A DNA stretch of 64,000 nucleotides, taken from positions 20,939,754-21,003,753 of the forward strand of contig CAIIXF020000011.1 of NCBI GenBank assembly GCA_903813345.2. The letters are read 5' to 3'. The notes below the pieces were generated by a model, which ran no database searches, was not told where the DNA came from, and worked only from the letters and a program-made list of their open reading frames with translations. Shown in pieces: positions 6,501 through 28,525 of this stretch. This DNA is from Owenia fusiformis (taxonomy: Eukaryota > Annelida > Polychaeta > Sabellida > Oweniidae). Numbering within the stretch: the first letter of the stretch is position 1; each line of letters opens with the position of its first letter. A program made the position numbers and the translations under genes.

Positions 6501-7439
6501 TTGAAGTTCTTGGTTGACGGATTTCAATTGGTTTTGACTGTGGACTGGGCAATGCATTGCCGGGCATTGTTATTGTTATCTTTTCACCCATATGAGAGTA
6601 AGCCATGTCACATACACCTGCAAAGAACGTGAATCAATATCTTTAAAAATTGAAACGCTCATTTTCCATTTTACTTTTCAGCTGTGAGAGTACCACCTAC
6701 ACCAAGACCAACACCTGCAGCAACTACACCAAAACCAACACCTGCAGCAACTACACCAAAAGCAAAACCAACCCCTGCACCAATTCCAACAAAATCAGTA
6801 CCAGGTAAACACTTTATTAATTATAGCCAATGAATGTAAATATTAAATACATACGTCTTCATGATGAACCCATCCCACATTCCCATTACTTTAAGTGAAT
6901 TGAGAATGTAGAGCTTATAATCAAATCTCAATCCGAACCATAATTTTATGTAAAATGTATGGTTGATCGAAAAGAAGTACAATGAAACCTGTATTTCTAA
7001 ATACATCTTAAGACATCCCAACGTGAACCATTTTGCCCATTTCTTGAAGCTGCTGTATATTTCTAAAAAAACGCGTGAAACCTCAAAAGATCAAGATCGG
7101 TCTTCATTGCTGTAGCAGTTATAGAAAGAATTGAAATAACCTCGTGGACAAAGGATGATCCGAATAATTTTGGACGGTTCTGTTGGCGTTCAGATTAGAC
7201 AGGTTTTACAGTAATACAATGTGTATTTTATTCCAGTTTGCCAGTACATTGGTCAGTTACTTGCTGATAAAGCAGACCCATGCAGATTCTACCAATGTGC
7301 CTATGCCGACAACGACCTGAACCTTAAGGCAGTCAGCATGCCATGTGCTCCAGGGACTAGTGTACTGCCCTCCTACGTTGCAGGCAATCCGTGTATTGGA
7401 CCAGCTCTGAAGCAGTGCCCCAAGGGAAAAGGAGAATAG
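3600..7439 (+). CDS. secreted PAN/apple-domain protein with Pro/Thr linker and Cys-rich chitin-binding-like C-terminus
   Basis: Seven exons: 3600-3681, 4172-4420, 4601-4738, 5741-5879, 6312-6466, 6682-6804, 7237-7439. All have GT-AG introns and the phases close to 363 codons including the stop. Residues 1-20 are a signal peptide (MMFYTSAILAIFAICSSFGS). Residues 28-110 form a PAN/apple-like module with regularly spaced Cys (CIKNF, CKKRC, FRCRSIDY, KCQLS). Residues 111-254 read as a beta-sandwich seen in many marine invertebrate secreted proteins, with VIAVKG, SSWKC and PGFDDSAW motifs split over exons 3-5. Residues 255-295 are a Pro/Thr/Ala linker. The last exon carries six Cys and aromatic residues like a divergent peritrophin-type chitin-binding domain. 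Likely an extracellular matrix, mucus or cuticle component; that role is inference. I cannot give it an established name. Confidence 0.85.
4011..4076 (+). repeat. partial copy of exon 3 placed upstream of exon 2
   Basis: The first 64 or so bases match 4601-4664 almost exactly, and the flanking intron (AAAGTGCATAGTTG before the acceptor) is also copied. The copy starts at an intact acceptor and could end at a GTAGAC donor. That gives a 66-base segment whose phase fits between exons 1 and 2, adding 22 residues (TIDIAADDAYDLF onward). It could be an optional exon or a silent recent duplication. Confidence 0.75.
5966..6234. mobile_element. MITE-like inverted-repeat element in intron 4 of the secreted-protein gene
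   Basis: Perfect 14-base outer inverted repeats (AATTTTGGAATAAC at 5966-5979, complement at 6221-6234) enclose a second perfect 16-base pair (CGTACGGCGGCCGTAG at 6054-6069, complement at 6160-6175). No coding capacity. The nested arms would fold into one long hairpin. Family unknown. Confidence 0.7.
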
Positions 7440-8682: not shown

Positions 8683-11600
8683 TTATTCGGGTAGTAAGTC
8701 ATCTCCCAATTCCTCATCATCAAACTCATCCTTCACTTCATTTGGTCGCCTAGCAGCTGTCTTGGGTCGTTCAGCCATTGAGCCGAGAGGATCTGAATAG
8801 GAGGCATCTGGAAATGAAAGGGTTAAACATGTTTTATCAAATAATTATTTGAAACATAGAATGAGTATGAGTAACTTTTCTTGCTCTTGTTTATAAATTA
8901 TGGTTCAGCAGAATCTTTTATAAATGTATTTCAAATAAAACAGTTATAGGAATTTTCACCAAAGTTCAAAATAAGTTTTAGAAACTAGAATGCCCTTGTA
9001 TTAAAATTGGTTGACTTTTCAAAGAATACTAAATGGACTGACATTAAACAGGTGAAAGTGAAATAGAAATCAAAGATATGAACAACAATCAGAATTCTCA
9101 GATCTTAAACTCAAGGGAATATAGTTCTACTCATAAGATTAACATAATACAAGAGTAGTAAAACAAGTCAAAGAACACTACATACCGACTTCCTTCTTTC
9201 CAAATGCGTCTTCATCATCATCAAAGTTTGGCCTGGTCCTTCTTGCGGCACTTCCTGCAGATCGTTCACCCCTTGCACTAGATCTTAGACTAGTTCCACT
9301 TCCAGCCCTGCTTCCTGAATCTAAACAGAAAACATGCATGCAAACATTAAATGGTTAGCAATAGAGAAATACCAGTAGGAGTAGGTTGGGTACTGCCTGA
9401 ATCTAAACAGAAAACATGCATGCAAACATTAAATGGTTAGCAATAGAGAAATACCAGTAGGAGTAGGTTGGGTACTGCCTGAATCTAAACAGAAAACATG
9501 CATGCAAACATTAAATGGTTAACAATAGAGAAATACCAGTAGGAGTAGGTTGGGTACTGCCTGAATCTATAGAGAAAACATACATATTAATAACAGATTT
9601 TTCCTATGTAACGAGTTATATTTATTTTTTGTATTCTTCAGATGAGTGTAGTTTAAATCTTGCAAATGAAATCATGATTGCTTTATTTGGAGGCTATTTT
9701 AGTTGATATTTGAGAATATCTCCATTGCAAAAAATATGCAACAAAAATTACATTATACTGATTCTCTATATTGCACTTGTTTACTGGATACACATAACTA
9801 CACACTTTCAACAAAATCACAAACAAACAAACCCTCATCTCACCACCCCTCCCTGTATGTCATAGTTATATGCATTTTTATATATATCATCTAATAGCTG
9901 ATTAAACAATCTAGCTATACAGAATATCAATCATTTTGGGTGATATCATTTTTATCTATGCATTGATATCAAATATCAACACGAATGAGTAAAGCGAATG
10001 AGTGTACTGTTGATATTTGATATCTACGAAGCAATAAAATGATATCATGAGAAATGATCTGATATAGGGTTTATCCCATTTCAAAAAATTTGAATAAAAA
10101 AATTTCATTGCATGATATCAACCATTCAATCGCATATGAGTTTGATAAATGTTTTTCTAAATATCACAAGGATTTCAATAATATCAAGAGTATCACAAGT
10201 TGTTATTGTAAATAACACATTAATCGTGGGATAAACATTATAAGTGTATGTAAGACCTAATTATCTTCAAACAAATGTACCAAAATGGATAGACCAACAA
10301 ATATAAAAAAATTGGATATAAAAATGACATAATAGATTTATGCTTTCTACAAAACTGAAAGCAAAATCAAGTCTATAATCTGCAAACTGTCAGATGGCTA
10401 GACCAGAGAAAACTAATATCGCATGGTCTGCCTTCTTGGGATAGTCTCGCTTCAAGACTGTGTGGCCCCGCTCCATGTACTACCTTCCCTACACAACAAG
10501 GGAAGTAGGGGAGGGGAGGGGGTACACAGTCTTGAACCAAAACTATTAGCTGGATTCCAGTTGAAATGATCTAAACATTTCAGATTCAATCCAGTGAAAA
10601 TCTTTATGGAAGGAAAACCTTCCAGTGCAGAATAAACAATTCTTGGGAAAGGGAGACAACCTGTTTGACACATGACCTTTATGAAATAAAATCATCCCAG
10701 GAATTGTGGGAGTTAAAATCCTCCTGTGCATGAACATTTCATACATGTGAAAACAACATACAAAAGCACACCAAACATTTACCTGCTAAGCCTAATTCAG
10801 GAAGGAATAAAAAAAATATGACATCAATTTGCATGCTATAACATTATGGTGAAACACAAAGACAATTCTATATCAAGTATATGCTTTCCCCATTCTCCAC
10901 TGTACCAAAGAGCTTATGGAGGTATTTATTTAGACTAATAACATAAATATAATATTCATTGAATTTTCTTGTTTATTCTCACTGACATTTTGCATGTTTT
11001 ACTGAAAAATATGACAACTGTGAAATCACACGGTCTTAACTTCAACCGTTAATTTGAATTATTGACCTACCGGATGTTTGAAAATCAAGGATTGCGACTC
11101 TCATACTGCGCCGTTTTTGGAAGTAGGGACTCTGTTTAAGAGAATAATGTACCATCAGACTCTAAACTCAAAATAGCGGTCAAAGTTAGGACCGCGTGGA
11201 AATGTGAGTGAGCAGGGAACATCATGCTTCATTATAACACGGTGTAATATGTAAAATGAACATACCACTTCCTGCACTGTTTTCCCTTCCCTCTCTCTTT
11301 CTGCCACTGCCTCTTCTACCACTGCCGCTATTTACTCTCTGAAAGATAACACACAGGGTTTTGAATAAGGTGTGACATAAGTGCCAGCCCAAGGCCTGGA
11401 GTCATTTACTCCTGATCTGGACCATCCAATTTTTCACCTTGCTTTGGAAAATAACATTGAATCTCAAATTTGAACACCTCTCAAATTTTTTTTACAATCG
11501 GCACACTTTTGGCCAGTAGTGTTTTGATTACAGGTAGGTTCAGGCCCGTAGCCAGGGGGTTCAGAGGATGTGAGTGAAGCCCCCCAGCAAAAGATTCTTA

Positions 11601-11931
11601 CAAAATCTTGCAGACTTTGGGCCAATATGGTCAAATGTGAACACCCTGGAATTTTCAAAAAGTGAACCATCCTTGGCAAAAGTTGGCTTTGGCCCTGGGG
11701 TTTTACTATATTTTCAAGAGTTTATGGTTTTTTAAACTAAAAATATAGCAAACAGCAGGAATAAACTATATGATATCTATAGATTAGTAGAACATGTATA
11801 GTTAATTAAAATAAATAGTTGTACCTGTTCTCTGAGTTCTTTAGACTTCTCCGCTTTCTTGAGTTTTGTAGCGAAATCATTTGCATCTTTCAGGCCCATG
11901 TCTGTTGACAGTCGTACCAGGAATCTCAAAC
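8683..11931 (-). CDS. IFT88: IFT88 exons 18-22, C-terminal tail
   Basis: Exons 11825-11931, 11266-11338, three 30-base microexons, 9186-9320 and 8683-8807. They encode LRFLVRLSTDMGLKDAND, a basic Gly/Ser/Arg stretch (SGSGRRGSGRKREG), then an acidic tail with DASYSDPLGS and ERPKTAARR, which match the vertebrate C-terminus. The stop TAA is at 8683-8685. The tail is predicted disordered and is the least conserved part of the family, so extra repeats here could be tolerated. Confidence 0.93.
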
Positions 11932-14900
11932 CTTAAACATGTTAATCATTTATAGATTTAACAATGCATCGAGTCAATTAGGATCGGCCATATAAGTATT
12001 AATATTTAAGCAATAGGTAAACCAATGAAATTGCTTAACCTACAGTCTACACTCCCGGGCCCCTCTAAACAATGTCATTATACTTTCTTCCATCAAACCT
12101 GACTTTCATTTACTTATTTATTCATTTATCTATTTATTTATATCAAACAATATAGGATCAAGTTAAAGTATCAAAGGATGAGTCTGGATATATGCCCTTT
12201 TGGTCTCTCAGTTAAATGTATGTAAAATATGATTTTTATAAATGTCCTAGTTATATTTGACAAGTGCATGTAGTTTTTCATGAGTTTTGATGCATAATTA
12301 ACCCCCTGCTGAGAGTCAAAATAAGTATCCTAACAAAAAAAAACAAGTAATCATTATCATAGAAAAAGACACCAATGGCAACATGTATGGCATATAACAT
12401 AGAAATAACTTTAAGACATATGGATAATTAAAAAGAAAATCATTTTTTTAAATATATTTTAGGATTTAAATTTTTTCAAATTTTTGAATTTCCCGCCAGT
12501 TTAATTTGAAGGGGGAAAAACAAGATGGCTGCCATTTTTTGTAAGAAATGTCAGAAAAAAAGTAGCTTCACTTTTAATTTTCACCATGAGCACAGTTTTC
12601 CGGTTTAGGTTTTTTGGTAGAATCTAACTTTGAGTGATTATAATCCCTTGATTACCCAGATTAACACCAATTCACTTATCAAGAAATACCATTCAATGTC
12701 TATACAAAGAAAGTAAGCAATGTTTTGGAGGATATATTTCAAACTTTTTGTATAAATTATTCATTTAGTATTTGTACTTGATTTTTTTCAATTTTGGCAT
12801 ACTGGTAGGCGTTCTCTTTGATGCCAATATTCTTCATTAATTGTGATACAAATTGGTATTTTTGTACTCTTGGGAAAAGGATAAGATATTGAGGTTTAAT
12901 AATATGTGTGATTGAGTTGTTTTTTCAGACATTACAATTTCCAATATTTTCTAAGTCGATATCCAGACTCATCCTTTTCTAATGAAGTTAAATAAACCAT
13001 CCCTCTCCCTAAACTACCCAAAACACACATTGAGTTTTATGCTATTCTTTCTCCATCAAACCAAGCTTTCAACCTGTTTCCATTGTATAATGTTTTTTTA
13101 TCAATGTACTTACATTCAATGTTTTCAGGGAATCTCTTATTTATACTTTTATATGTGTCAAGGGCCTTCTGGTAGTTCCCACTGCGCCTGTGACAGCTAG
13201 CTATCATCATGTACCACTTTACTTGGTTGGGCCTAAAACACAAGTAATGCAGGATTTTTGCAACAACACATAATATGGACCATAGAAAATTATTTTATAT
13301 ATTTTTGACTTAAACACATTCCAATACAGCCCCAAAAACTTGAACAATCAGATATTTAGTCATGTACAGTACATTAATTTTTGGTTTATGTCAAGTTTGT
13401 TGAGTCTGCACCAAACTGGACTGTAACTTACTGTATCAAGGCTGCTCTCTCAAAGTATTGTATAGCCTTCTCACAAAACTGAGAGTCAATGTAGTAGGCC
13501 CCTAGCCATTCTATGATCTCAATGTTTGATGGGAAATACTTGAATGACTGAAAATACAATTAGAAAATGTAAAGCGTATAAGGTGAAAATAAACATTTCA
13601 CTTGAATGTTTAATATATAAATAAAAACATAATGAATTATTATTTTGTGTGGTTATAATGTTAATTTCTCAAAACTGCACATTTGTGTTTAAATAACAGT
13701 ATAAATTTCATTTGGCTACAATAAAATTATTGACAAACAAAATGAAATGTGAAAATGAATTCAACAATTTTTCAATGACTGAATTACTTACATCATAATG
13801 GTACTGGAAAGCTTGTGACTTATCCCCCTCATTATCAAATATTTCCCCTAGTCTAGCCAAGAGGGTAGCATCAGTGGGCACGATGCCTATAAGCTGCATG
13901 AACCATTCTGTAGCCTGTGCCGTATCTTCTAGCTGGTCATATATATCAGCAATGTGATATATCACCTGAACATAAAAATATATTGTTTATGTTAGGAATG
14001 AAAAATGTTCATGAATGTTTGGTGTGAAAAATAAGGTTCATATAAAATGAAATGTTAATATGCGGAATTACCTTGTATCTTCTTCACATTAAATCATTAT
14101 TAACTCCCTCCCCCCAATAAAGTAAACTTCAAGAACACAATTTTGTTCCATATATTAGATGTACAGAAATCATTATACTGTACTACTTAAGTCAGTTTTT
14201 TAGTTTTTATGGTTTCTTTATTTTACTTTACAAAATTATCTACAAATGACAGGGCCGAGGCTGAAATCAGCATTATTGGCCCTGTTAATACAAAGTTTAT
14301 TCAAATTTACAAAATAGCATCAAAATGACTACCAACATATATGTATGCATGGCAGGAATGTGTTAAAACTATATAATTATATCAATGCATTCACACAAAA
14401 AGGATGTAAAATGCTTCAATATTGAAGAATTGCATGTTATGCTAACTCCATCTCTGCTATACATTAAGATATTCAGCTTTTGCTCTATAGAGCATCCTGT
14501 AAAGAAAATGTTCATTTCTGGCATGTTCCTGAGTTCCCCCCAAAGTTTCTCTCTTATAACATTCAACAGAGGGCATTTGAAGATTAGATGCTTTGTAGTT
14601 TGTTGTTTAAAACCACAGATGCATTTGGGACTGTCAATACCTTGAAAATTATGTTGAAAAAGATGACCAGTAAAAATGAAATCACATCTTGTTCTATTCA
14701 GTAAAATTTCTTCTTTTCTTGTAAGATCCAGGTTTGTGGTTGTTAAATGCTTCATTGTCCCTGAATATTTACGTAAATTGGTTTTGAAAGTGACTCTTGA
14801 TGGTGCACTTTTTAGATAATTTGGAATGGCTTCCCATTCTCTTATGGCATTTATTATTGGTGACTTTTGTGAACGTGCAGTTAACTTTGGAATAGTGTAT

Positions 14901-17900
14901 TCTCTTGATTTTCTCAAGTTAATATTATGTTGCTTATTTTGATAACTATCAAAAATTTTTTGAACATAAGTTGGGACCAATTTCTGTCTAACATCATACA
15001 TTAAACGTAAACGTTTCTCCTTTCTCCGCTCAGACAGGGTATTCCAATTTAGACATTTCAAAACCTTTACAGTAGATGTTCCATGAATGCAGCCACTTAC
15101 TAATAATGCTGCCCTATAATGAACTTGGTCTAGTTTCATAATATTATACTTGGTAGATTTTTCAAATAATATACTTCCATACTCTAAGTTTGGGAGAATA
15201 AATGATAGATACATCTTCTCTAGGTGTTTAGCTCGAATCTTGGTCTTAAGAACTTTCAATGGATTTAACATTATATTACATGCTTTTATGATATCCTGTA
15301 AATGGGCTTCAAAATTCAAATGCTCATCTAGAATGACTCCTAAGTGTTTATGAGTTCTGGTTCTATTAATGACCTCATTTCCTAGGTAGAGGGGAGGGTA
15401 TAAGAGATTGCACCTCCTTGAGCCTTTAAAAATCATATCTTGACTTTTAGAAGGTTTAAATTTAAGCTTCCATTTCTGTGACCATTCCCATAAATTATTT
15501 AAGTCAGCTTGTAAATGCTGGTTCTGTTCAATGATATTAGCTTTCCTATTAAATGGCATAAAGATTGAACTATCATCTGCATAAAGGTAAAGTTGACTAT
15601 GATTTATGACTTCATGAAGGTCATTTATATATAACAGGAAGCAAAACGGCCCAATTATGGATCCCTGCGGCACGGAACTATTTATGAAGTATTCATTTGA
15701 GATTGCTGATAATTCTCCATTAGCTTTAACTTGAAGTCTACGATTGAAAAGATACGACTGCAAAAGTTGAGTAATAGTATCTGAAAAGCCATATGATTTA
15801 AGTTTTTTTATCAAAAGGAAATGCGGAACGGAATCAAACGCAGATTCTATATCAAGAAACACTCCTCTGACATCATGATTTTTGTCAATGTAATTGTCAA
15901 TAAGATCAACAATCGTTAACAGTTGTTTTTCCGTACTATGTCCTGGAAGAAAACCAGACTGATTTTGATACATTAAGTTGTTGTCTTTAACATATTTAAA
16001 CATGTTATTATAAATAATACGTTCTAGCAATTTAGAAACATTACTTAACAAGGTAACTGGTCTATAATTTTTTGAATCACCCTTTGATCCTTTGTTTTTA
16101 TATAAAGGTACTACAGTTCCCAATTTCCAACAGGTGGGAAAAACTTGTTTGTCTATTATTATCTTAAATAAATCAAAAAGAGGTTGATCAATACTATCAC
16201 AGCACATTTTTAACATTTTATTTGAAATGCCATCTGGCCCCCCTTGTTTTGAGACATCAAGACTTTGAATAAGTTTATTTATGTCTCCCTTAGTGAATTC
16301 AATTTTATCAAAAATCATGTCAGTTTTCAAAGGTATTTCTGGTGATTGAGTTTCATCATAGTCATGATGGAATTTAGATAAAAATTGATTAAGCAAAAAG
16401 TTTGCATTTTCTGAGCTGTTTTCAGCCACAATACCATTGTCAAAAGAGAGAAATGGTATGTCAGAACAGAATTTTTTCCCAAGTAACTTTTTAATGGCAA
16501 TCCAGTAAAATTTGTTATTAGATGTATGTGTTTCTAAATTATTGCAAACAGAATCTTGATAAGATTTCTTGGCTTTCTCAATAACCTCCTTAACAACAGA
16601 CTCTTGTCTTTTGTATTGATCATAAATTACTGAATTTTTTTCAACCTTAAATTTCCTGTATAACTTGTCCCGTTTGTTTATTGAGCTTTTGACTTCCCGT
16701 GTCAACCATGGCAAATCTTTAGAACGGATTATTTTAACTTTATTCGGAATATGAGTATTAAATATTGATAAAATTGCCCTAGTAAAATTATCAACCATCT
16801 CATTTATGTCTGAACAAGACATGATTTGTTCCCAGTCGTACTGTGAAATTGCTCTATTCAAGTGAAAAACATTACAATCGCTATACTGCCAGATTATTCT
16901 TTCTGAAGTTAATTTTTCATTATGCCTACATATGTTCAATTTGCCAAATAAGCAACAATGATCTGACCCAATTGGTGGTTTAACAGATGCTTCAAGTACA
17001 TATCCAGGTGAATCACAGAAAAATAAATCTATGCATGAGCGGCTGTTTCGAACACACCTAGTTGGCTCATCGATCAATTGTGAATAAGAATGTTGTACTG
17101 AAATATCATACAATTTATTACCTTCGACCGAATTAACATCATCTGCCCACCAATTTTTGCTTCGTGCGTTAAAGTCCCCTGTAAACATCACCAGGTCGAT
17201 TTTTTGGGAGTTTGACACTTTTTTAAGATTTTCACTCAAGCAATTTAGATAATGTTCACGCGTTATAGGATTCTGAGAAGGTGAACGGTAAAAAGTACCA
17301 AATAAAATATTTTTCTGTTCAATACGAGCTTCAATCCAGAGACAATTTGTATCATTAGCATTTAAGTCATCCAGAACTTTAAATTTAATGGAATCTTTGA
17401 CATAAATTATGATACCACGCCCAGATTTGTTATAAAGAGAGTCGTTTAATATATGAAAACCATCTATGTTATATTTTGAAATGTCTAAATCAGTACCTGT
17501 CTCACAAAGGCCAGCAATAGATATGTTTTCTCTCTTAATAAATAGCTTTAAATTTTCGAATCGAATACCATTGTCAGCAGATAAACTATTTATATTTGTA
17601 AACATTATATTCACATTCTCAAGCTGACTAAATGGACCTGGATTAGGTTTGACATCAAAAGCCACCAATAGCAAACTCCTAAGTACATCTTGCTGAAATG
17701 CAAGATTTATATATAATGAACTTCCAGGAATAACTACTTAAGTAGTACTGTAATATCAAAAATCAGAAAGCTTATGCTTCTGACTGCCAAAATTGCACAC
17801 AATTGAAATATGTCTTTCCATCACAAATGGAATAAAAGAACATTAAATGGTTGTTGACTCCATAAAAAAAATATAAAATCCAATTAAATGAATGATTGAT

Positions 17901-20900
17901 CACTAGATCTTGTTTCATAACATTATCGCAAAAAGGTAAAAATATTAAACAGCAATAAATTAATAATTAGTTGCACTTAGGTAATGTCTGCCTAATCACA
18001 TGTTCTCATATGTTTCATATTAAAAGCTGATACTCCATAAATCAAAATGTACAGGTAAATTGAATAGAAGTTTAGATTACTATTGGAAGTGAAATTGTGG
18101 CTTATACATTATGTTATTTGGAACATAAAGTGAATTCAATGTTTAGGATACAACAAAAAGTGACAACAGCTCTGGAGCAATGATCAATTATTGACGTCAG
18201 AATTATTTACTAAGGCAACTTTTCGATATCTTATTCAAGTGTGTTAGCTTGTGGTCACACAAAAGATGTTTTTTAAATACACTAAAATGTGGAAAAGGAG
18301 GTACAATTACAATAAACAAACACAACAGTTTTTTTAATACAATAACTAAGATTAAAATATTGTAGTAATGGATTGGAACACTACCACGAAGACACTGATA
18401 AACTTTAAAGTAAGCACATTAGTTACATACGAAGAAAAGATACTCTATAGCGTTATAGCCACCATAGGATTCATTGGGAATCTTTTCGTTATATTTATCT
18501 TCTTTAAATCTGTAAAATTTCGAAGAAAACTTAACAACATGTTGATTATAAATCAAAGCTGTGTTGACATGTTGGCTTCATTGGTCATATTATTGACTAA
18601 AATATTTTATGATATGGACTGGATAAAGGAAGAAGGGCTATTGGCAAATTTCTTCTGCAGTTTTTGGCTGTCGGAGTATATCCCTTGGGCACTAGCCGCA
18701 ATTTCAACATTCAACCTCGAAGCAATTACCATCGAGAGATACATTTCTCTTATACACCCAATATTTTACAGGAAACACATCTCAAGGAAGCTAATTTGTA
18801 GAGTCATAGTCCTTCTATGGTTGATAGGCTTTGTACATGAAAGCTACGAAATTGGGAGTTCTGTCTTAACAGGAAGAACATGTTCCTTGTGGACGAAATG
18901 GCCAAGTAAACAATTCCTAAACGTATTCGGCATATACATATTTGTTGTTGAATTTTTCATGCCAATTAGTATCATGGTATATTGCTACATCAGAATTGTC
19001 TATATGATTCACAACGGATCAAAATTTAAAATTGGATCATCTCGACGTGAGCAACAAATGTCTAAAAGTAGAAATATTGTTGTACGTACACTGATTTTTG
19101 TGTCGTTTGGATTTTTCATTTGCTGGGGACCAATTATTATATATTCACTGTTAAAACGTCTAAGTATCATTGCAGACTACAGTGGAACACCATTCCAGAT
19201 CACATCCTGCATGGCATTTGTAAATTGTAGCATCAATCCAATCATTTATTCATTTAGCCACACTTTATTTCGAAGGGAGTTGAAGAAGATTTTCACAAAA
19301 GAGACAGTTTTACAATGACAAGTAAAAGGAGGTCAATAAATAGACAACAATAAAATAATAGCAATTTCAAGAAAAGTGAGTTGAGTCCATTCTGGTTTAT
19401 CAGTCCCGTAGGCCCGAAGTCAGGATTTGCCAAGCGGGGTTCAGTTTTCAAAAATTTCCAGGGGGGTTCACATTTGACAATTTTGGCCCAAATATGGCTA
19501 AAAACACTTGTGAAGTGCTCAAAATGGTGAAAAACTGCATGATTTTGAAAGAATTTTTGGCCGGGGGAGGGGGGGGGGGGGTGTTTGCCCGAACCCTGCG
19601 AACGCACCCTGGTTACGGGCCTGATGTTTGAGCCTGTAATCCAAGAGATAGTACAGGCTGTGAAACTCATAATGAGTTGGGCCTTTCGAAAATGCTATAT
19701 CATGGCCAATTAGAGAGTGGTGCAATTCTTCAAAACAATATGTTAAAATGATCTACTCTACGCTTGATTAAATTGACATTTACTAATCGATCACGATAAT
19801 GATCACAATAACACCGTCTTCATGACGACTATATCCCACCAATGGTGTGATAAAAATAGTATTATGAAAGATAACTGACCTGCGCATTGTTTCTTAAAAT
19901 AGCATGTAGCTTGTAGAATGTCTCCAATGCATCCTCAAGTCGTGCCAATTTCTTGTTGCTCAACCCTAGATATAAGTAATAATTACACAAAATAGTGTCA
20001 CATTTAATTTATGAGTCAAGGTCATCTTAATCAAGGTTAATGTCATCTTTGTTTACTCGTCTCCCATGGGTTAAAGTGAAGACCGAGTGTGTGAAGATGA
20101 TGTAAGGTTACGAAGGTCAGGTTTTGCAGCTATTTTTGTTAGTTAGTCACTCAAATGATAAAATTTTCAAGAATTGCTAAAATTAGAATTAAAACCACTT
20201 TATCATAAAAAGGAGAGATAAATCTTTCAATCAAAAAAGCTCCATAAATAAGACATTTTTCAGTCCCATGATCCATCTATCTAATGTTAAATTAACTCAT
20301 GTGTATAAACTGTATATCATGTACTATATGCATATTTTATGTATTAGTAATAAGCCTTTTAAAGGGCCTACTTAGATGATTAAGGACCTAAATGTACAGT
20401 AGATCATAAAGGACCTACCTAGATTATAAAGCGCCTCAACACAGGAGAGATCATTTTCAAGAGCTTCCTTATAGAACTGTTTTGCTTTCTCATAGTCTTT
20501 CTGCATGTACCAAACATTGCCACGGTTCACCAATGCAGCAGGGTTGTAGCGATCTGCCTGCATTGCAACCTCTGCATACTTAGCTGCTTGACTCAGATCA
20601 TTCTCCTGGAATTGAATCGTAGAATATATACATGTACAGGGGTTTCACTAGGATTTCTCACAACAGGCTTAAATGAAAACGACAGGCAAAATTAATGGAA
20701 ATCATAAATTTAACATGGAAAAGTTGAAAAGTCCCTAAAAACAACAGGCGATTTTGTGAAAACAAATGGTGAAAATCGCCTGTTGCCTGCTGCTAATGAA
20801 ACCCCTGCAAGTATGTATCACTCATCTGACACCATGTAAAAGTTTGTATGTTAGTTGGGCTTTTTCAATACACTTTCTAGTATTGTTCTTTTAACTTCAG

Positions 20901-23900
20901 CTAAAGTTCATATTATAAGGGTTTTAAAACATTGAAAATTATTTAAGAAATATTTTGAATGAGTTCACTTCAGAGAAATACTGTAATCACCATTCACAAA
21001 CACAGGGTTAACTGTACATGTAATGGCTTTGTATACTAATAAAAAGTGAAGTACATGTATCTTTATCTTATTACTTTATTTGCTTGTACATACCAGAAAG
21101 TAGAGGAAGGAGAGATTTGTAGCAGCTGTGCTTGCAACCTTGGTGTCCTTCTTCTCAAATGACTTCAGTGTTTCAATTGCCTATAACATCAAAACACATT
21201 TTATTTTAGGTATATATCCATGTGTATATCTCAGACCCCAAAAAATTTTAATAATATAATCTTTCCTGCTTCTTATCTGGGTGAGAATAAAGAATAAATG
21301 TACAATGTAATCTACATGCAACAATATATATGGACTTAATACTGAACAAATATCTCATTCAGAGTGAAAACTTATTTATATTGATGTCTCCATTTCCTAG
21401 GTATTTCCTAGGGATTAATTTAGATTTCACATCATGCAAAATGGGGTAAATGTATCTTCCCAGGAAAATAAAAAAACTGTATTGAATCATGTTCATTGAA
21501 AAAATGACCTTCCATTAATGAAATATTATTCTTTAATAGGATATTGTCCATATGAAAAACCATATCCAATCCCCTCACTAAAATAATCTATATTTATTTC
21601 ATTCCTGAAGTGGATAGATTATTGATGTACAGTTGTATTAGGATTAAAACAGTTACCATATATACATTATCTAGAACAAATACTATAATACCCCATGCAT
21701 GCTTTTGGAGTATACCTGCATAATTGTTTTTAGTTTATGAATTCAATTTGATACTTTAGACTCGGTTTAGAGGCTGGTTGTTTGAGGCATATGTTTCTTA
21801 TAATTTCCCAAATCAAGACGTTCTTGGTTTTTAGGAGTAAAGCAGCAAAGGTAAGTCTAACATGGCCCAAAATCTTGAATATATCTGAATCATGAAGATG
21901 TATGAATGATGCGAATTGCATCCTAGATGAGAGTCATCTTGAAAAATGTATGTTTTTATCTGAGCTGGATGGTATGACTGTTGCAAATGTTTGAATGAAT
22001 GGCGGTAGTGTGAAAAATAGATGGCCTGTTTTTCTTTATTGTACATGTACTTGTGTCATGTTTGAAAAAAAGAAAAAAAATGAAATCTCTTTCAGTGATG
22101 TAAAACTTTTTGTAAATAGTAGCTTAAAAAGTCCTTGTCAAATGACAAAAGTATGAGAGGGGCTGCAGTCCACGTAACTTTTAAAAGGCATCTTATTCAT
22201 TTACTACTCAAAGCAATTTTTTAAAGCAGCAAGTTATAAGTTGAATGAATTTTTGTGTATTTTATGATAAGTGATACAGACTGAACACCTTTTACTTTGC
22301 CATCAAACAAACATTGATATTTCATGTGTATGATTCTTGTTAAGATTACTGAAATAAAAAAGCTATATTACTTAAAAATAATATCATGCAGTAAAATTAG
22401 CATGCAATACCTCACACTGTAAAACTTGATATTCTAAAACCAATTTCTTGAAAATATCGTCAATTGGATTTAACTCCATATTTTCAATTGTCTTTCACAG
22501 TGTAAAAATGAAAAAACACTGTAGTGATTGAATTTTGACAATATTTTGAAAAATAGGTCCATTGTTCATCATTAAGGGGTTAAAGCCTTAATGTGAAAAG
22601 AGTAAAGGGTTGTGGGAGTAACCTGAATGACTCCAGGGTTAGGCATTGTCTTTGTATTACCATAATATGCCAAAATAGGGTTAAATTACACACATAACTA
22701 GAAACTAGTAAACATGCACACATTGTGAACAAACATACCATTTTGGAATATTTCATCTAAAGCAGAATAAATACACAATCATTAATATAACAACATTTCA
22801 AATAAAAAGCTCACTATATGTTATTCAAGAACAAACTTCAGACAACAAAATGAAACAAGCATTATATTTACAGAATTCACAAAACAACCAATTTCATCTA
22901 ACATCAAAGAGTAAAACTTGCAAAGGAATTCTTACAGATATACAAAGTTATATAAAGGACACAACATGGTGATGCATGTATGACTTGTACTGAACAATAA
23001 AATATATCGAATCAAGATTTCAAATCACAAAAGCAGCTGTGTAACATATCAGTGGAAGTAATAATCAAGAGACAATAACGAATACAAGCAAATACATGTA
23101 CATTACAAGCAAATATTAGTAGCTGGGAAGCATATAGAAGCAACAATATTAATATTGATGTGATCACAGTTTTTCTCATAAAATTTAAACTGGCTGAAGA
23201 ATACAGCAGCTTCAGACAGTCAATTTAGCTCCAATCATTATCTTGATTAATTCATAAGCTAATTGAGCTATTTTAATGCATCAAGAGAAGCTGATGGTCG
23301 TAGGAAGCCATTTTAAAGGCGCATAATTTGGTCATACTCTTCCCTAGCTTTGAGTAGATTTGTCCACAAAACATAGAATGGGGTGTCCAGTATAATTTTC
23401 TGAGATCTATGTGACCACATTGAAATACATATATGTAGAATGTAACATGTATACCTGTTGGAAATCCTTCTGTTTAAGGTACATCAGTGCTTTATCAATC
23501 TCAAGATCATGTGCCAGTTCAACATAGGATGAACCCTTCACCTGTTCAACACACCTGAATACAGAGACACGTACAATGTACTTTTTTTCATTATAATATT
23601 ACACTCAATGCTTAATAGGGTTTAACAAAGCAGACATGGGAAGTAGTACTTTAATCTAAATTATTTTATCAAAAAACGATCTTACCAATCATATCCCTCA
23701 GCAAATGTGTTCTCGATGGCTGGTGAAATAATCTTTGCTGCGCTCTTGATGCATCGCTCGGCTTCAGTTTTACTACGTAACAGAAAATCACATTTTAAGC
23801 TTACATGTTTATCATGTGTCAGTACTATGCACCCTTGGATCATAGTCAGTGGACTATGCATTTACTTGTCTAATGTACTGGTAGATTATTGCAAATGGCA

Positions 23901-26900
23901 ACAAAACAGATGGACGCTAAATGCTGTTGGATTCAAACAATGGTAACCATAACAATTAAATGTAATAATGACTTCTTAGTGGTGACATATGTATACATTT
24001 GGTTATAATGTAAATACTGCAAGGTTGAATGTGATGGAACAACTTACGCCTTTCTCTCTATCTTCCTGAGATCATCATTCTTGATAACTTCTAGGATGAG
24101 ATTGTATTGTTTGTCATCCTGCAAGACATACTTTGGTCAGTTAAATAATATATAACTTTTAATGTCCAAGTAAGCAGTCAATTCAGAGTATATGTGACTA
24201 AATTGAAACAAAGTTTCTTAATCACTTAGCTGTAAATAAAGATTTTACTGGTTTGCAATGTATGAGGAAAAACGAATTAAACATACATATTGTGGCAAAT
24301 AATCATTAATTGAAATTATGTGGCAAATATTATGGATCAAACTTACATTATGCGGCAAATATTTATCCTCATCTTCCATTTTCAAATCTACCATTAGAAG
24401 TTTCTGGAATGCTCTTTTCATTTTTTCTCGGTCTCCCAGTGCGAAGTAACAAAGAACAAGATTGAAGCCTGTTGCGATGGTGGGCTGCTCCATCATGATG
24501 TGTTCAAAGGAGGTGATAGCATCGTTGTATTGATTCATCTTCACAAATGCAATTCCGATGTTGGACATGATTTTAATCCTAGTGGAAAGCAAATATAAAA
24601 TGAAACAATTTTAAAACATTTAGAATAACTGAAACATAAATTCACAAAATGAGTAAAATTATGAAATTGAAAAACTTTGAGGATTTATATCTCAGATCAT
24701 AATACCTGAAAGTTTTAAAATATTTTTAGAATCTTCAATTGAAAAATATTGTAAAGAAATTTTTAAGCAGGTTGGAGAAAAATATCTGAAAGCCTTATAT
24801 TCATACAATAGAAACACTATGACTTGTTGAAAGTGAAATCCGAAATCTTCAAATTATATTTCTTATTAGACCTAGTGAGTGAAACAAAGAGTTATAACTG
24901 TTAAATTAATTATTCTTTTACAAAACATACCTCATGTTTTTGTGAGTATTTGGGACCTGATCAAGAGCCATCCTGTACATCTTGACTGATTTCTGCCATT
25001 GTTTCTGTTTGAAGTAAATGTTGCCCATGTTCACCTTCAGCCGCCCTAAAAGAATTCAACAACATATGGTTATGAACATATCGTTTTATAATTATAGTTG
25101 TTTTCTGTTAAGAAACAATTGCCCATTCGGTCTTCAGTATGACACCAACCATCAGACACGCTGGTAATGTTAATTAATCTATTAACCTTGGCAATTCTAT
25201 CTGTTGATTGTTTGAAACCTTGAAAATTGGAAAAAACATACATGACAAGTACAAATCATGGCAACATCGATTATATGGCTACGATCGTAAATGTGACAAT
25301 GAGTTAAGTTACCTGCATTGCTAAACATCTTGTTCTTCACAATGACTTGGTATGTGTTAATTGCCTCTCCGTACATCTCATTTGCTGCATACTGGTTTGC
25401 CAGGTTGAATAAAACCTGTAGAAAACAACAAACAATCATGAACCTGTAGAAAGCAACAATCATGAACCTGTAGAAAACAACAAACAATCATGAACCTGTA
25501 GAAAACAACATACAGTCATGAAACATTGGTCTACACTTGAGTCTTCATTGCAAGTTAATGCCTAATTTTAATTGTATTCTGTATACACTGTATTATAGAT
25601 TTGGTATATACGGTATATTCGTAGATGTTGGCCTTTGATCTTAACATGTGGAATTTTTAATATGTACATGTATAATCATGCTAATGTACTGCAACAAGTA
25701 AACGGGAGTCAATCTTAATTAATCAATCAATATGATAACATTCAACATATGAACCAACAATGGTATGGTACATATAAAACCACATTTTCTCATTTAAATC
25801 ATCAATCATGTATGAGATTTGTATATAGGGTTGCAAATAAGTACCCCATCTACATCCAAAACCAAAACATATGATACCAAGTCCAATTGTATATCACACT
25901 AGGTACCATTTATTAAGGTTTTAGCTGTAGCAGGGGATTTGACATCCTATAGAAACCCATTTAACAGCACTATGATGCAAATATACATATATAATATCAT
26001 CTCATAAACAGGTTCATGATTTCTTTATTATTTTTCAATTTTAAGAGAAAGTGCGACCAGACTGCTGTATGATTATTACATGTATTATTAAGGTGCATTA
26101 TTATTTATTTTTGTACATTCATAGGCATGTATTACTATAAGGCAAAACAAATTCTTGACTAAAATTATAAAAATGAAGTCCCATATAAAAGTATAATATC
26201 TAAATTGGTTTACTTACTTTTTCCTCACCTATATAAATTTGCCTAACCCATTTAAATTTGCCTCACCCATTTAAATTTGCCTCAGCCATTTATTGTACAA
26301 ATATCACCCTTGGCATTTGCCCACATACACTCAATTATAGGCTTCCTCTTGAAAGCTAATAACTCAATAAGTGATAATGCATCTTAATAAAACGCAAAAT
26401 GTTACAGTCAGGTTGTAATTATTGTTAGTAACAGAACATATTGGAAATATTTGTTAACCTGGAAAAACAGGATAGGGTTGATTTTTCTTGAATCCTCTTC
26501 CTAGATATTGAAACATAGAAAATGATTCATGGATATGAAATATTTTTTACATTACTTTAATGAAAACATAAGAGATTATTTTATTTCATGGAAGTCTACA
26601 TATTTCAAAGGTTTTTCAATTTCATAGATCCATTTAGACATATTTCTTTATTTCAAGAATTGCAACAGATTTATGAGCAAATAATAGCCCTTAATTAATA
26701 AAAAATGAAATCCCAATTTTTATATCATTCATGTAGAATCAGAAATGATCAAACTATTTTACAAGTACATGTACAATGAAATAGAATTATTCTTAATTTT
26801 CTGTCAAATACAAGTCTGAATATTCATGGACTTATTTCTTCTTTACTTTATTACACAAAACATCTCCCTCAATGCAAAAAGGCAATATTGCAAGTTCTCC

Positions 26901-28525
26901 CATTTTTGTTCGATTCATTTTATAGAACTTCCTATAATGCCACTACAAAAAAAACTTACTGAGTATGTGAGATCTAGATTTATCTGATCATTCGCTGACA
27001 TCTGCTCTCTCTGACGTACCAACTGTCTCTCTTTGCGACCAGCTTCTTTTGCTTTCTCAAGAGCCTGCAAATGAATGCATGTTTTGAGAAAATGTGTGGC
27101 ATACAAAGATGATTGTCAGTCACAAAATATGATGTCTAGGTCTATAATGATATGTAACCATTTCTTGGTCCAAGTCCTAGATATGTGAATAATGCTAAAG
27201 TAAAGTGTGTAACTTACAAGTTGAAACTCTCTCCGATCATTTGCAAAACAGCTTTCTTCTATCAGCTCATTGACTTTCTTCTCAATTTGCTTGATCTTCT
27301 CTTCTGGGCTGAATTTATAAATCAGGAATACAATATAATACGATGCAATTCAATACAATAAAATAAGTACATGTTCTTGAGGCAATGGCACAAGATTTCA
27401 GCTTTCAAAGAACCTATATATATCTGAAAACAGATTCTCACGACTGTATTAATTTTTTCTAAAGCATCCTCGAATAAAAGAGTAATGCATTTGAGATAAG
27501 AAAATTGAGGTCGAGGTTTAACATTACAAATACACATACCTATCTTCAGGTTTAGTTTCCAGGGGTGGGGCTGGACCTTTTGACTGATTCATGGGGTCAA
27601 ACTGTGCCCCACTCCCTCTATAGCCAGCACCTTTTACTGCAGTCATAGGGCGTGCCTGCCCATCCTGGCCAACCTATGTGAAGAATATATGTGACATGTT
27701 ATAAAACAAATCTTCATTTACAAAATGTATTTTTCTCATTATTGGAAGTTAAGAAAACTTTTTATTATTCATGCATTCTGTCTTGTAACTTCAGGAAATC
27801 ATCAATTTATATACAGGATACAGGATTTGTAGGATTTAATTATTTTTCCAAGTGATCTCTGATGCAAAATTTGTAAACAAATACAACACAAGCAAAATAC
27901 AAATAGAATAATTGATATTGATTCAATGCATGTACTTATAACATCAACAACATACACATTGCTCATTAATATTAAATGACATATGATGTTAAAATCCTAC
28001 TTGAGCTCCTGTGATAGGACGTGCTCCCATGGAAGAAGGAGGCATGCGACCTTTACCCATTGTGCCCATCCTGGCTGCTGTAGGCTACAAAGAAGCGATG
28101 TTTAGACAGTTGTATATTTCTAACATTTTTAAAGCATACATTTTTTATATTTATTCATTTCATATTATTTTCTCTTTATAGTACTGGACATGCATATTTC
28201 TGATTATTATCATTCTGGTTGAAAAAAATATGTTACTCTAGAGTTAATCATTCATTGTTAGATATATTAAATGGAACTGTTACCATAAGTTGAACCAAAA
28301 GCACGATTTGGAATTTTACTTCTTAGCATAAATAATACCTAATGCATGTAATTGAGTAAATGGATAAAAACTCACAGGTGGACGTCGTCCGTGACTAGTT
28401 CTAACAGCATGTTGGAAGGCTGGGTCATTCTCTAAATCTCCTGTATCTAATGTAGCATTGTAATCATTGAATCCTCCATACAAATCATCCTCATCTTCAT
28501 TTGCCAAATGAACCTGATCCATCAT
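8683..28525 (-). CDS. IFT88: intraflagellar transport protein 88 (TPR protein)
   Basis: Core subunit of the IFT-B complex, which carries cargo along ciliary axonemes; needed for ciliogenesis. Exons in order: 28376-28525, 28001-28084, 27540-27673, 27218-27308, 26960-27064, 25313-25415, 24931-25045, 24347-24578, 24048-24118, 23686-23772, 23455-23554, 21094-21180, 20419-20605, 19880-19965, 13792-13965, 13432-13547, 13114-13232, 11825-11931, 11266-11338, microexons 9537-9566/9455-9484/9373-9402, 9186-9320, 8683-8807. Every junction phase closes: 856 residues with all microexons, 826 without, close to the vertebrate length of roughly 830. Conserved blocks include DEDDLYGGFNDYN at the N-terminus, FQHAVRTSHGRRPP, tandem TPRs over about residues 189-690 (QADRYNPAALVNRGN, EGDKSQAFQYHYD, RRSGNYQKALDTYK), and the acidic end EELGDDLLPE. 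The start is MMDQVHLA at 28525, matching the family N-terminus. Confidence 0.97.
9373..9566 (-). repeat. IFT88: tandem triplicated 30-nt microexon of IFT88 (82-bp unit)
   Basis: An 82-base unit is repeated so that acceptors CTGTTTAG/CTCTATAG and donors GTATTT flank three identical 30-base segments at 9537-9566, 9455-9484 and 9373-9402. Each is phase 1-1 and encodes ten residues (SGSTQPTPTD), so any number of copies keeps the frame. The acceptor before exon 9186-9320 has the same sequence, and that exon begins with the same seven bases (ATTCAGG). Exon use is inferred from splice sites and phase only. Confidence 0.8.
9941..10047. repeat. long imperfect palindrome in an IFT88 intron
   Basis: Arms of about 40 bases (TGATATCATTTTT... 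and its complement ending AAAATGATATCA) flank a 25-base spacer. They share the core GATATCAAATATCAACA. Could be a hairpin-forming satellite unit or a foldback element. No coding content. Confidence 0.7.
10451..10543. repeat. foldback repeat with purine/pyrimidine-rich arms
   Basis: TTCAAGACTGTGT at the left is mirrored by ACACAGTCTTGAA at the right. Between them a CT-rich stretch pairs imperfectly with GGGAAGTAGGGGAGGGG. Non-coding; probably a small inverted-repeat element. Confidence 0.55.
11027..11198. mobile_element. short TIR element (MITE-like) in IFT88 intron
   Basis: Imperfect inverted repeats of about 22 bases (CACACGGTCTTAACTTCAAC against CACGCGGTCCTAACTTTGAC on the other strand) bound a 170-base non-coding stretch. 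No clear target-site duplication was found. Confidence 0.5.
11541..11690. mobile_element. dispersed repeat, GGCCCGTAGCCAGGGGG family, copy 1
   Basis: Contains CAGGCCCGTAGCCAGGGGG and CAAATGTGAACACCCTGGAA, shared in inverted orientation with 19401-19625. Repeats with this start are widespread in invertebrate genomes (recalled, not searched). Boundaries are approximate. Confidence 0.55.
13114..25415 (-). CDS. IFT88: IFT88 exons 6-17, TPR array
   Basis: Exons 6-17 encode residues 189-680, tandem tetratricopeptide repeats that form the IFT-B binding superhelix. Typical TPR signatures are visible: YGEAINTYQVIV, GNIYFKQKQWQKSVKMY, IGIAFVKMNQYNDAITSFEHI, DYEKAKQFYKEAL, LGEIFDNEGDKSQAF, QFCEKAIQYFERA. 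The intron between exons 14 and 15 (13966-19879) is the longest in the gene because it holds a LINE and a GPCR gene. The acceptor of exon 6 is preceded by three tandem copies of itself. Confidence 0.95.
14193..17732 (-). mobile_element. non-LTR retrotransposon insertion (Jockey/CR1-like), 3.5 kb, 11-bp TSD
   Basis: A LINE inserted in the IFT88 intron, in the same orientation as IFT88. The 11-base sequence ACTACTTAAGT occurs at 14182-14192 and again at 17733-17743, exactly flanking the element, and reads as a target-site duplication. The element has one long ORF and a 3' untranslated region of about 175 bases containing a CAGGGCC/GGCCCTG stem and an A-rich tail. No separate ORF1 lies upstream, so it is 5' truncated or a single-ORF lineage. 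Confidence 0.85.
14369..17674 (-). CDS. LINE ORF2: endonuclease / reverse transcriptase polyprotein
   Basis: An uninterrupted frame of about 1,100 codons. AP endonuclease at about residues 20-245: catalytic LCETG (about 57), GDFNAR (166-171), SDH near 237. Reverse transcriptase at about 520-780: NYRPVTLLS, FLDIESAFDSVP, SVPQGSIIGP, YADD at 698-701. A CIC...H...C zinc-knuckle-like motif lies near the C-terminus, as in Jockey and CR1 elements. The frame has no ATG at its start: it runs open in the minus direction to a stop near 17740, so 17674 is only a conventional start (TTG). The N-terminus FDVKPNPGP resembles the 2A-like motif of some LINEs. No stops or frameshifts, so the insertion looks young. 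Confidence 0.92.
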   Translation of the reverse strand: MLLVAFDVKPNPGPFSQLENVNIMFTNINSLSADNGIRFENLKLFIKRENISIAGLCETGTDLDISKYNIDGFHILNDSLYNKSGRGIIIYVKDSIKFKVLDDLNANDTNCLWIEARIEQKNILFGTFYRSPSQNPITREHYLNCLSENLKKVSNSQKIDLVMFTGDFNARSKNWWADDVNSVEGNKLYDISVQHSYSQLIDEPTRCVRNSRSCIDLFFCDSPGYVLEASVKPPIGSDHCCLFGKLNICRHNEKLTSERIIWQYSDCNVFHLNRAISQYDWEQIMSCSDINEMVDNFTRAILSIFNTHIPNKVKIIRSKDLPWLTREVKSSINKRDKLYRKFKVEKNSVIYDQYKRQESVVKEVIEKAKKSYQDSVCNNLETHTSNNKFYWIAIKKLLGKKFCSDIPFLSFDNGIVAENSSENANFLLNQFLSKFHHDYDETQSPEIPLKTDMIFDKIEFTKGDINKLIQSLDVSKQGGPDGISNKMLKMCCDSIDQPLFDLFKIIIDKQVFPTCWKLGTVVPLYKNKGSKGDSKNYRPVTLLSNVSKLLERIIYNNMFKYVKDNNLMYQNQSGFLPGHSTEKQLLTIVDLIDNYIDKNHDVRGVFLDIESAFDSVPHFLLIKKLKSYGFSDTITQLLQSYLFNRRLQVKANGELSAISNEYFINSSVPQGSIIGPFCFLLYINDLHEVINHSQLYLYADDSSIFMPFNRKANIIEQNQHLQADLNNLWEWSQKWKLKFKPSKSQDMIFKGSRRCNLLYPPLYLGNEVINRTRTHKHLGVILDEHLNFEAHLQDIIKACNIMLNPLKVLKTKIRAKHLEKMYLSFILPNLEYGSILFEKSTKYNIMKLDQVHYRAALLVSGCIHGTSTVKVLKCLNWNTLSERRKEKRLRLMYDVRQKLVPTYVQKIFDSYQNKQHNINLRKSREYTIPKLTARSQKSPIINAIREWEAIPNYLKSAPSRVTFKTNLRKYSGTMKHLTTTNLDLTRKEEILLNRTRCDFIFTGHLFQHNFQGIDSPKCICGFKQQTTKHLIFKCPLLNVIREKLWGELRNMPEMNIFFTGCSIEQKLNILMYSRDGVSITCNSSILKHFTSFLCECIDIII
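18192..18199. promoter_or_regulatory. CRE-type palindrome upstream of the GPCR
   Basis: TGACGTCA, 169 bases before the GPCR start codon. It matches the CREB/ATF consensus. Function is inference; three other exact copies occur in the window (2265, 3276, 60661), so chance cannot be excluded. Confidence 0.35.
18368..19318 (+). CDS. intronless class A (rhodopsin-like) G protein-coupled receptor, orphan
   Basis: 316 residues in a single exon, with seven hydrophobic segments beginning near residues 26, 58, 98, 142, 188, 238 and 276. Class A hallmarks: GN in TM1 (36-38), SCVDMLAS with D67 (2.50), C97 and C172 for the extracellular disulfide, ERY at 123-125 in place of DRY, CWGP at 252-255 in TM6, NPIIY at 290-294 in TM7. 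One N-glycosylation sequon (NTT, 4-6). Intracellular loop 3 and the C-tail are short and basic. Probably a peptide or amine receptor; the ligand cannot be assigned. It sits inside an IFT88 intron on the opposite strand. Poly(A) signals follow at 19335 and 19349. The intact frame argues for a functional gene; the lack of introns may reflect retroposition. Confidence 0.9.
   Translation: MDWNTTTKTLINFKVSTLVTYEEKILYSVIATIGFIGNLFVIFIFFKSVKFRRKLNNMLIINQSCVDMLASLVILLTKIFYDMDWIKEEGLLANFFCSFWLSEYIPWALAAISTFNLEAITIERYISLIHPIFYRKHISRKLICRVIVLLWLIGFVHESYEIGSSVLTGRTCSLWTKWPSKQFLNVFGIYIFVVEFFMPISIMVYCYIRIVYMIHNGSKFKIGSSRREQQMSKSRNIVVRTLIFVSFGFFICWGPIIIYSLLKRLSIIADYSGTPFQITSCMAFVNCSINPIIYSFSHTLFRRELKKIFTKETVLQ
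19335..19354 (+). terminator. poly(A) signals of the GPCR gene
   Basis: Two AATAAA hexamers at 19335-19340 and 19349-19354, 17-31 bases after the stop codon, which is very close. They support an independent transcription unit with a short 3' end. Confidence 0.5.
19401..19625. mobile_element. dispersed repeat, GGCCCGTAGCCAGG family, copy 2
   Basis: Opposite orientation to 11541-11690, sharing the GTTCACATTTGAC and GGGCCTGA ends. Right end TACGGGCCTGA. Contains a G-rich run at about 19563-19581. Abuts the GPCR 3' region. Confidence 0.55.
20638..20807. mobile_element. short TIR element (CAGGGGTTTCA ends)
   Basis: CAGGGGTTTCACTAG at the left and CTAATGAAACCCCTG at the right are near-perfect inverted repeats. 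Internally ACAGGC/GCCTGT motifs pair. 170 bases, non-coding, in an IFT88 intron. The ends resemble hAT-type MITEs, but no clear 8-base duplication is visible. Confidence 0.65.
21181..23454. other. IFT88 intron without other recognisable content
   Basis: About 2.3 kb of AT-rich sequence. Short frames on both strands have no family resemblance. Nothing else seen. Confidence 0.5.
25416..25520 (-). repeat. IFT88: tandem copies of the IFT88 exon 6 splice acceptor
   Basis: Units of 28, 24 and 28 bases repeat the pyrimidine-rich tract and CTACAG|GTT of the true acceptor. Read on the minus strand, pseudo-acceptors lie 80, 52 and 28 bases upstream of the exon at 25415. None of these offsets is a multiple of three, so use of an upstream copy would break the frame. 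Confidence 0.8.
26231..26290. repeat. short tandem repeat (ATTTGCCTCACCCATTTAA type)
   Basis: About three degenerate copies of an 18-base unit in an IFT88 intron. Non-coding. Confidence 0.55.
26960..28525 (-). CDS. IFT88: IFT88 exons 1-5, N-terminal region
   Basis: Exons 28376-28525, 28001-28084, 27540-27673, 27218-27308 and 26960-27064 encode residues 1-188. They hold the acidic N-terminus, a low-complexity Arg/Gly/Pro stretch with the conserved ARPMTAVKGAG motif, then a helical segment (PEEKIKQIEKKVNELIEESC, AGRKERQLVRQREQ) that leads to INLDLTYS before the first TPR. Donors are GTGAGT, GTAGGA, GTATGT, GTAAGT and GTAAGT. Confidence 0.95.

Follow-up and report, generated by a model that had tools for sequence, protein, structure and literature searches.

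A tandem triplication of a candidate in-frame microexon directly upstream of the penultimate exon of IFT88

Three head-to-tail 82-bp units lie on the minus strand directly before the penultimate exon of the ciliary gene IFT88, each made up of a 30-nt exon-like part and a 52-nt intron-like part. The locus raises the question of whether these units are exons that add residues to the protein, and in what number, or silent repeat copies that splicing passes over. We addressed this question in a single window, meaning the whole 64-kb stretch of DNA that was analysed. The repeat, its reading frame, the scores of its splice sites and a second, bracketing repeat are direct observations. We favour a genuine frame-neutral cassette microexon of IFT88 that was recently triplicated over silent repeat copies, and give this reading a slightly better than even chance.

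The spliced genes of the window mark its DNA as eukaryotic. The host gene was modelled mostly by a simple chaining script that allowed introns of at least 50 nt; two edges (13792 and 11931), one exon (13547-13432) and the start at 9320 were set by hand. The model has a single open frame of 831 aa ending in EELGDDLLPE, and its 20 introns measure 131-5914 nt. The gene and the exons that flank the array are:

8683-28540, minus strand: IFT88 gene, 21 exons in the model without microexons, from exon chain and frame.
11266-11338, minus strand: IFT88 exon upstream of the array, ending in phase 1 (..AGT G, followed by gtatgttc), from the exon chain and the continuous 831-aa frame.
9186-9320, minus strand: penultimate IFT88 exon, downstream of the array, beginning ATTCAGGAAGC; the chain program chose 9314, 6 nt further in.

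The preliminary description of this DNA had named the gene IFT88, and protein comparison bore this out. Pieces of the model aligned with the IFT88 chain of PDB 8bd7 (E 6.2e-58 for the whole sequence), the significant stretches falling between residues 160 and 745, and TPR families of Pfam matched residues 1-521; the top rank among PDB entries went to an engineered TPR protein (5.3e-59). ELGDDLLP of the model pairs with the final residues of the 8bd7 chain, a weak match of -1.2 bits alone. The 5914-nt intron of the gene holds two further frames: a 1122-residue stop-free endonuclease and reverse transcriptase frame of the non-LTR type in sense orientation (14369-17737), and a 320-residue stop-free rhodopsin-family receptor frame on the opposite strand (18356-19318), which is either a nested gene or a retrocopy.

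Coordinates and repeat score both confirmed the three 82-bp units with identical 30-nt pieces in phase 1-1, each with an acceptor and a donor, that had been described before. Tandem Repeats Finder reported 9314-9585 with period 82, 3.3 copies and a score of 516, so that the pattern is not due to chance. The 30-mer, ATTCAGGCAGTACCCAACCTACTCCTACTG, occurs in three identical copies, each with ..TAG before it and GTATTT.. after it, and no copy was found on the plus strand of the window. The 52-nt part starts with GTATTT and ends in TTTTCTGTTTAG. In the order of transcription, the parts of the array are:

9537-9566, minus strand: candidate microexon copy 1, 30 nt, phase 1-1, SGSTQPTPTD.
9485-9536, minus strand: unit intron 1, 52 nt, with one base unlike the other two, TTAAC and TTAAT as branch-point candidates, and TGCATGCATG.
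9455-9484, minus strand: candidate microexon copy 2, identical 30-mer.
9403-9454, minus strand: unit intron 2, 52 nt.
9373-9402, minus strand: candidate microexon copy 3, identical 30-mer.
9321-9372, minus strand: unit intron 3, 52 nt, containing the acceptor of the downstream IFT88 exon.
9333-9342, 9415-9424 and 9497-9506, minus strand: TGCATGCATG, two overlapping RBFOX-type motifs (TGCATG) with a putative function.

Units 2 and 3 match at all 82 positions, while unit 1 has one differing base in its intron part. Such identity would also be expected of an assembly artefact, in which the true allele has another number of units, but the array spans 246 bp and fits one long read, and one base sets copy 1 apart; we therefore consider an artefact highly improbable. 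RNA structure over the array was unremarkable (z 0.68).

With none, one, two or three 30-mers inserted between the exons on either side, the joined frame encoded proteins of 831, 841, 851 or 861 aa with the terminal stop only, each copy contributing SGSTQPTPTD. Leaving the first 52-nt stretch unspliced led to a stop after GISLLLTI. As in symmetric microexons, the 30-mer is no longer than 51 nt, a multiple of three and free of stops, and has GT-AG sites. As in tandem-duplicated exons, homologous exon-like pieces of equal phase lie next to each other, here with a predicted role as exons.

Splice sites were scored with models trained on our own exon chains, from IFT88 and from a second gene of the window, afadin-like by an RA domain (Pfam), which carries exon 56473 and which we take to be afadin. 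Three IFT88-chain exons in the retrotransposon region, the donor near 13805 and 8 of the 21 afadin exons (coding score <8) were left out of training; among the sites kept, acceptor 11901 and donors 48445 and 58872 are probably wrong. A first acceptor model gave the array inflated scores because it had been trained on the array's own downstream acceptor, and the acceptor scores given here come from a model that excluded the array. In the array (9314-9566), every acceptor consists of two sites, TAG and ATTCAG, separated by 6 nt. The TAG sites scored 7.9 at copy 1 and 6.1 at copies 2 and 3 and the downstream exon, above 14-20 of the 31 modelled acceptors (14/31, a middling rank, for the latter three places). 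The ATTCAG sites scored 7.7 at copy 1, 10.6 at both copies 2 and 3 and 9.5 at the downstream exon, above 19-29 of the 31, and the best site of each pair exceeded 20-29. The second site thus outscores the first at three of the four places and about equals it at copy 1, making a 24-nt in-frame exon form at least as likely by score as the 30-nt form. The 24-nt form kept the frame when tested with one copy, and two residues (DS) may be optional at each array junction.

The donor is less convincing. With a score of 4.0 it lies above only 3 of the 31 modelled donors, and this weakness is one of the points in favour of a silent array. Under that explanation the locus would be a minisatellite-like tandem duplication across an intron-exon boundary, its upstream copies would be pseudo-exons or decoy acceptors, the spliceosome would use the last acceptor (9320/9314) only, and the protein would lack the segment. 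The exon chain behaved in this way, skipping all three microexon copies and joining 11266 to 9314 although introns of 50 nt were permitted, and 30 nt is short for exon definition. We hold a silent array to be a tenable explanation, if one that falls short of an even chance. What speaks against it is that every copy comes with a donor, continues the reading phase without a stop and specifies a peptide suited to the tail, a combination that is rare after other intronic AGs.

This rarity was put into numbers with several null tests. Of 557 other intronic AGs of IFT88, 24 were followed by a microexon of 12-60 nt that was in phase, lacked stops and had a donor of equal or higher score; this count used a mask with slightly wrong edges for two exons. 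When at least 50% GC was also required, 1 of the 557 remained. An acceptor score of at least 6.1 was reached by 51 intronic AGs, 6 of them in the array; after the 45 others, a microexon of this kind, whatever its GC content, was found twice. The GC content of the 30-mer is 50%, compared to 31% for the unit intron and 34% for the window. The residues F, I, L, M, V, W, Y and C are absent from SGSTQPTPTD and number 3 in the first 60 residues of the surrounding IFT88 tail. A 10-aa peptide lacking all of them was encoded after 2 of 580 intronic AGs (both among the 301 followed by a stop-free 30-mer); of 7007 intronic positions that were free of stops, 22 began such a peptide. All of these tests were devised with the array already known, they overlap, and GC content and hydrophilicity are correlated; jointly, they favour a coding past of the 30-mer over a random pseudo-exon.

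Two other arrays in the window also bear on the question, and they count for a silent array, as they duplicate acceptors without a sensible product. First, the acceptor of IFT88 exon 25415 (TTTCTACAG, followed by GTT) is repeated four times at 25413-25522 with spacings of 28, 24 and 28 bp, which places exon base 1 at 25495, 25467, 25443 and 25415. Starting the exon at an upstream acceptor adds 80, 52 or 28 nt and breaks the frame each time. The contrast with the 82-bp array is imperfect, since two of these upstream copies also give an in-phase stop-free stretch (24 and 51 nt) with a donor of equal score; after the 24-nt stretch only 28 nt of intron remain before the real acceptor, and the 51-nt stretch ends within the real exon. 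Second, in the afadin-like gene a 116-bp unit comprising the acceptor and ~79 nt of exon 56473 is present in 2.8 copies (56222-56551). Both upstream copies contain in-frame stops when read through, unlike the real exon, which is open; within 100 nt of these copies, no donor in phase reached an equal score. Both arrays look like silent duplications of acceptors. Overall, 3 of the 7 arrays with a Tandem Repeats Finder score of at least 100 span a modelled acceptor of IFT88 or the afadin-like gene, demonstrating that such duplications occur and are tolerated; they are weakly commoner than under random placement (P 0.025 for the whole window, 0.10 within the two genes). Extra acceptors may accordingly lie upstream of a real one without productive use, and the 82-bp array may be a third such case, in frame by chance.

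Other repeats were seen in the window. At 54363-54571, a 110-bp unit is present in 1.9 copies. Its first base is intron base 27, counted from a modelled afadin donor (54336), and the second copy begins near GGTTTGAAGTTTGA, which is similar to the sequence just past that donor. A 30-bp unit at 49809-50079 is present in 9.1 copies and is largely open in frames on both strands. On the plus strand, a PAN-domain exon is followed downstream by a modelled exon (6682-6804) that is rich in Pro and Thr and contains a 27-bp tandem repeat.

To trace the origin of the IFT88 array, we compared the acceptor regions at its two ends. The downstream exon had been noted to share its acceptor and first seven bases with the unit, which was taken as a hint of how the unit arose. 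The sharing was confirmed and extends to a 26-bp direct repeat that brackets the array, 23/26 identical and made up of 19 nt of 3' splice region and the first seven exon bases; this supports an origin by way of the shared acceptor. The block at the upstream end is:

9560-9585, minus strand: A-type acceptor block, 19 nt of 3' splice region and ATTCAGG, 23/26 identical to 9314-9339.

Among 6873 AG sites on both strands of the window, the A-type block ranked fourth, after three B-type (downstream-type) blocks of which one was the query, and the next best site matched at 18/27. The three mismatches between the bracketing blocks fall 4, 6 and 16 nt upstream of the exon, so that the 10 bp of TAGATTCAGG are the same in both. 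The A-type block is an older, diverged copy of the B-type block. With 3 changes in 26 bp, compared to 1 change among the units, the bracketing repeat is probably older than the triplication. The acceptors between the units are of the downstream (B) type, which, together with the identical TAGATTCAGG, is the pattern expected from exchange or slippage in the 10-bp stretch. No further ungapped match of at least 62% to the 30-mer or the 52-mer was found in the window that could represent another source. A candidate for a diverged fourth unit upstream was unconvincing, as the best local alignment outside the 26-bp block scored 22, a value equalled by 8 of 200 shuffles. Selection could not be read from the position of the differences either: one intronic difference among the units and three between the bracketing blocks are too few, and that all are intronic carries no weight.

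How many copies an mRNA could hold depends on intron length. Within the array, the possible introns are 52 nt (copy 1 to copy 2, copy 2 to copy 3, copy 3 to the downstream exon), 134 nt (copy 1 to copy 3, copy 2 to the downstream exon) and 216 nt (copy 1 to the downstream exon). If 52-nt introns can be spliced in this animal, 0-3 copies are possible; if they cannot, an mRNA holds at most one copy (copy 1 or copy 2), and the ancestral single copy cannot have been a coding exon. The preliminary description had held that any combination of copies, from none to three, could be used. Its frame part stands, the frame being open with 0-3 copies, whereas the joining of several copies does not fare as well, as it needs 52-nt introns in a gene whose modelled introns measure at least 131 nt. 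Introns near 50 nt are spliced in nematodes, insects and some human genes.

The proximity of splice sites within the unit gives rise to a more restricted version of the cassette reading, in which an mRNA holds 0 or 1 copy, with copy 1 spliced over 216 nt or copy 2 over 134 nt, and the triplication supplied intron length and not protein repeats. We think both parts of this version rather unlikely. The shortest of the 20 modelled IFT88 introns, at 131 nt, is far longer than the 52-nt unit intron, and in afadin the 7 introns that separate kept exons measure 369-1178 nt. The only branch-point-like motifs found in the unit are candidates, by sequence motif, at 18 and 26 nt from the donor, closer than two published limits: in the excerpts available, a donor-branch site distance of 35 nt abolished assembly on adenovirus E1A pre-mRNA (PMC6692369), and a steric threshold near 50 nt has been proposed (PMC7969005), both limits deriving from mammalian or viral pre-mRNAs and possibly not those of this host. 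The afadin chain also contains introns of 49 and 51 nt, which would weigh against the restriction to one copy, though we judged both to be false because their flanking exons have low coding scores and the second lies within a long open frame. A further point against this restriction is the 30-mer itself, whose coding-like appearance points to past splicing over 52 nt, in tension with the short-intron limits.

The unit introns also carry a possible regulatory element. TGCATGCATG lies at +31 to +40 of each unit intron, its presence in three introns being one observation triplicated and not three. Of the 52-nt stretches in the part of the gene that lies upstream of the array, 1.8% contain at least one TGCATG and 0.16% contain two; across the whole window the motif is common (63 compared to 44.9 expected, array included). 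The motif is present downstream of copy 1, and no GCATG was found in the 300 nt upstream of it. According to the excerpted text of PMC4317164, TGCATG, the RBFOX motif, is overrepresented downstream of alternative human micro-exons. One could go further and suppose that the triplication made the exon usable, converting a dead single-copy pseudo-exon into an RBFOX-controlled cassette through the added intron length (216 nt), with unit number, that is, spacing, setting the inclusion of the ten residues and possibly varying between individuals. We regard this extension as improbable.

Returning to the cassette microexon that we favour, its history and use would be as follows. A 30-nt IFT88 cassette microexon, or one of 24 nt with the second acceptor, would originally have occurred once, flanked by two acceptor blocks related to each other. 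Exchange or slippage in the 10-bp identical TAGATTCAGG at both ends would recently have triplicated the microexon together with its 52-nt downstream intron. The microexon would be included in some IFT88 mRNAs and skipped in others; where included, it would lengthen the hydrophilic linker that connects the TPR domain with the C-terminal end by the residues SGSTQPTPTD. Copy 1 would be expected to be the most used, because its acceptor is met first and its donor reaches the downstream exon over 216 nt. If the array is used, it represents a young multiplication of a microexon in a deeply conserved ciliary gene, with copies still identical and the recombination substrate visible; with introns of 52, 134 and 216 nt competing in one transcript, it would further serve as a natural experiment on how short an intron can be in its species. 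If it stays unused, the 64-kb window has three tandem duplications that span an acceptor, this one included, and the question becomes how splicing ignores duplicated acceptors.

The locus can be compared with several known kinds of systems. A minisatellite or VNTR that crosses a splice site resembles it in the head-to-tail, near-identical 82-bp units and the bracketing direct repeat, and differs in that each IFT88 unit has an acceptor, an in-frame exon-like piece and a donor. Tandem duplication is also known to give rise to introns. In the parts of the open-licence literature covered by our search, judged by titles and opening lines of abstracts, we found no IFT88 microexon array and no tandem microexon in a ciliary gene, and the same search gave no match for an intrinsically disordered, phosphorylated IFT88 C-terminal tail. 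The phosphorylation tuning of the tail raised in the preliminary description is a speculative idea.

Among published systems, the tandem duplicated exon substitution events of PMC9741552 share adjacent duplicated exons of equal phase. As excerpted, those exons are mostly ancient, mutually exclusive and different from each other, whereas the IFT88 copies are identical, so that swapping one for another changes nothing and only inclusion or number could matter. The schistosome MEGs have small symmetrical exons whose skipping would alter the protein by a few residues (PMC4350168, in part). Most of the coding region of a MEG, however, consists of such exons and the products are secreted, while in IFT88, an otherwise ordinary ciliary gene, they are confined to the array and the 21 other exons measure 71-232 nt. 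In the mutually exclusive exons of alpha-tropomyosin and OGDH, attributed to steric hindrance in the portions available of PMC6692369 and PMC7969005, the likeness is in branch-point candidates less than ~50 nt from the upstream donor; unlike in those genes, the branch points of IFT88 are predicted from geometry. Alternative micro-exons of at most 51 nt, as described in the excerpts of PMC4317164, are likewise similar in kind: the IFT88 piece has 30 nt, is frame-neutral and has TGCATG just downstream, and it departs from them in being known from its sequence and in coming as three copies with 52-nt introns.
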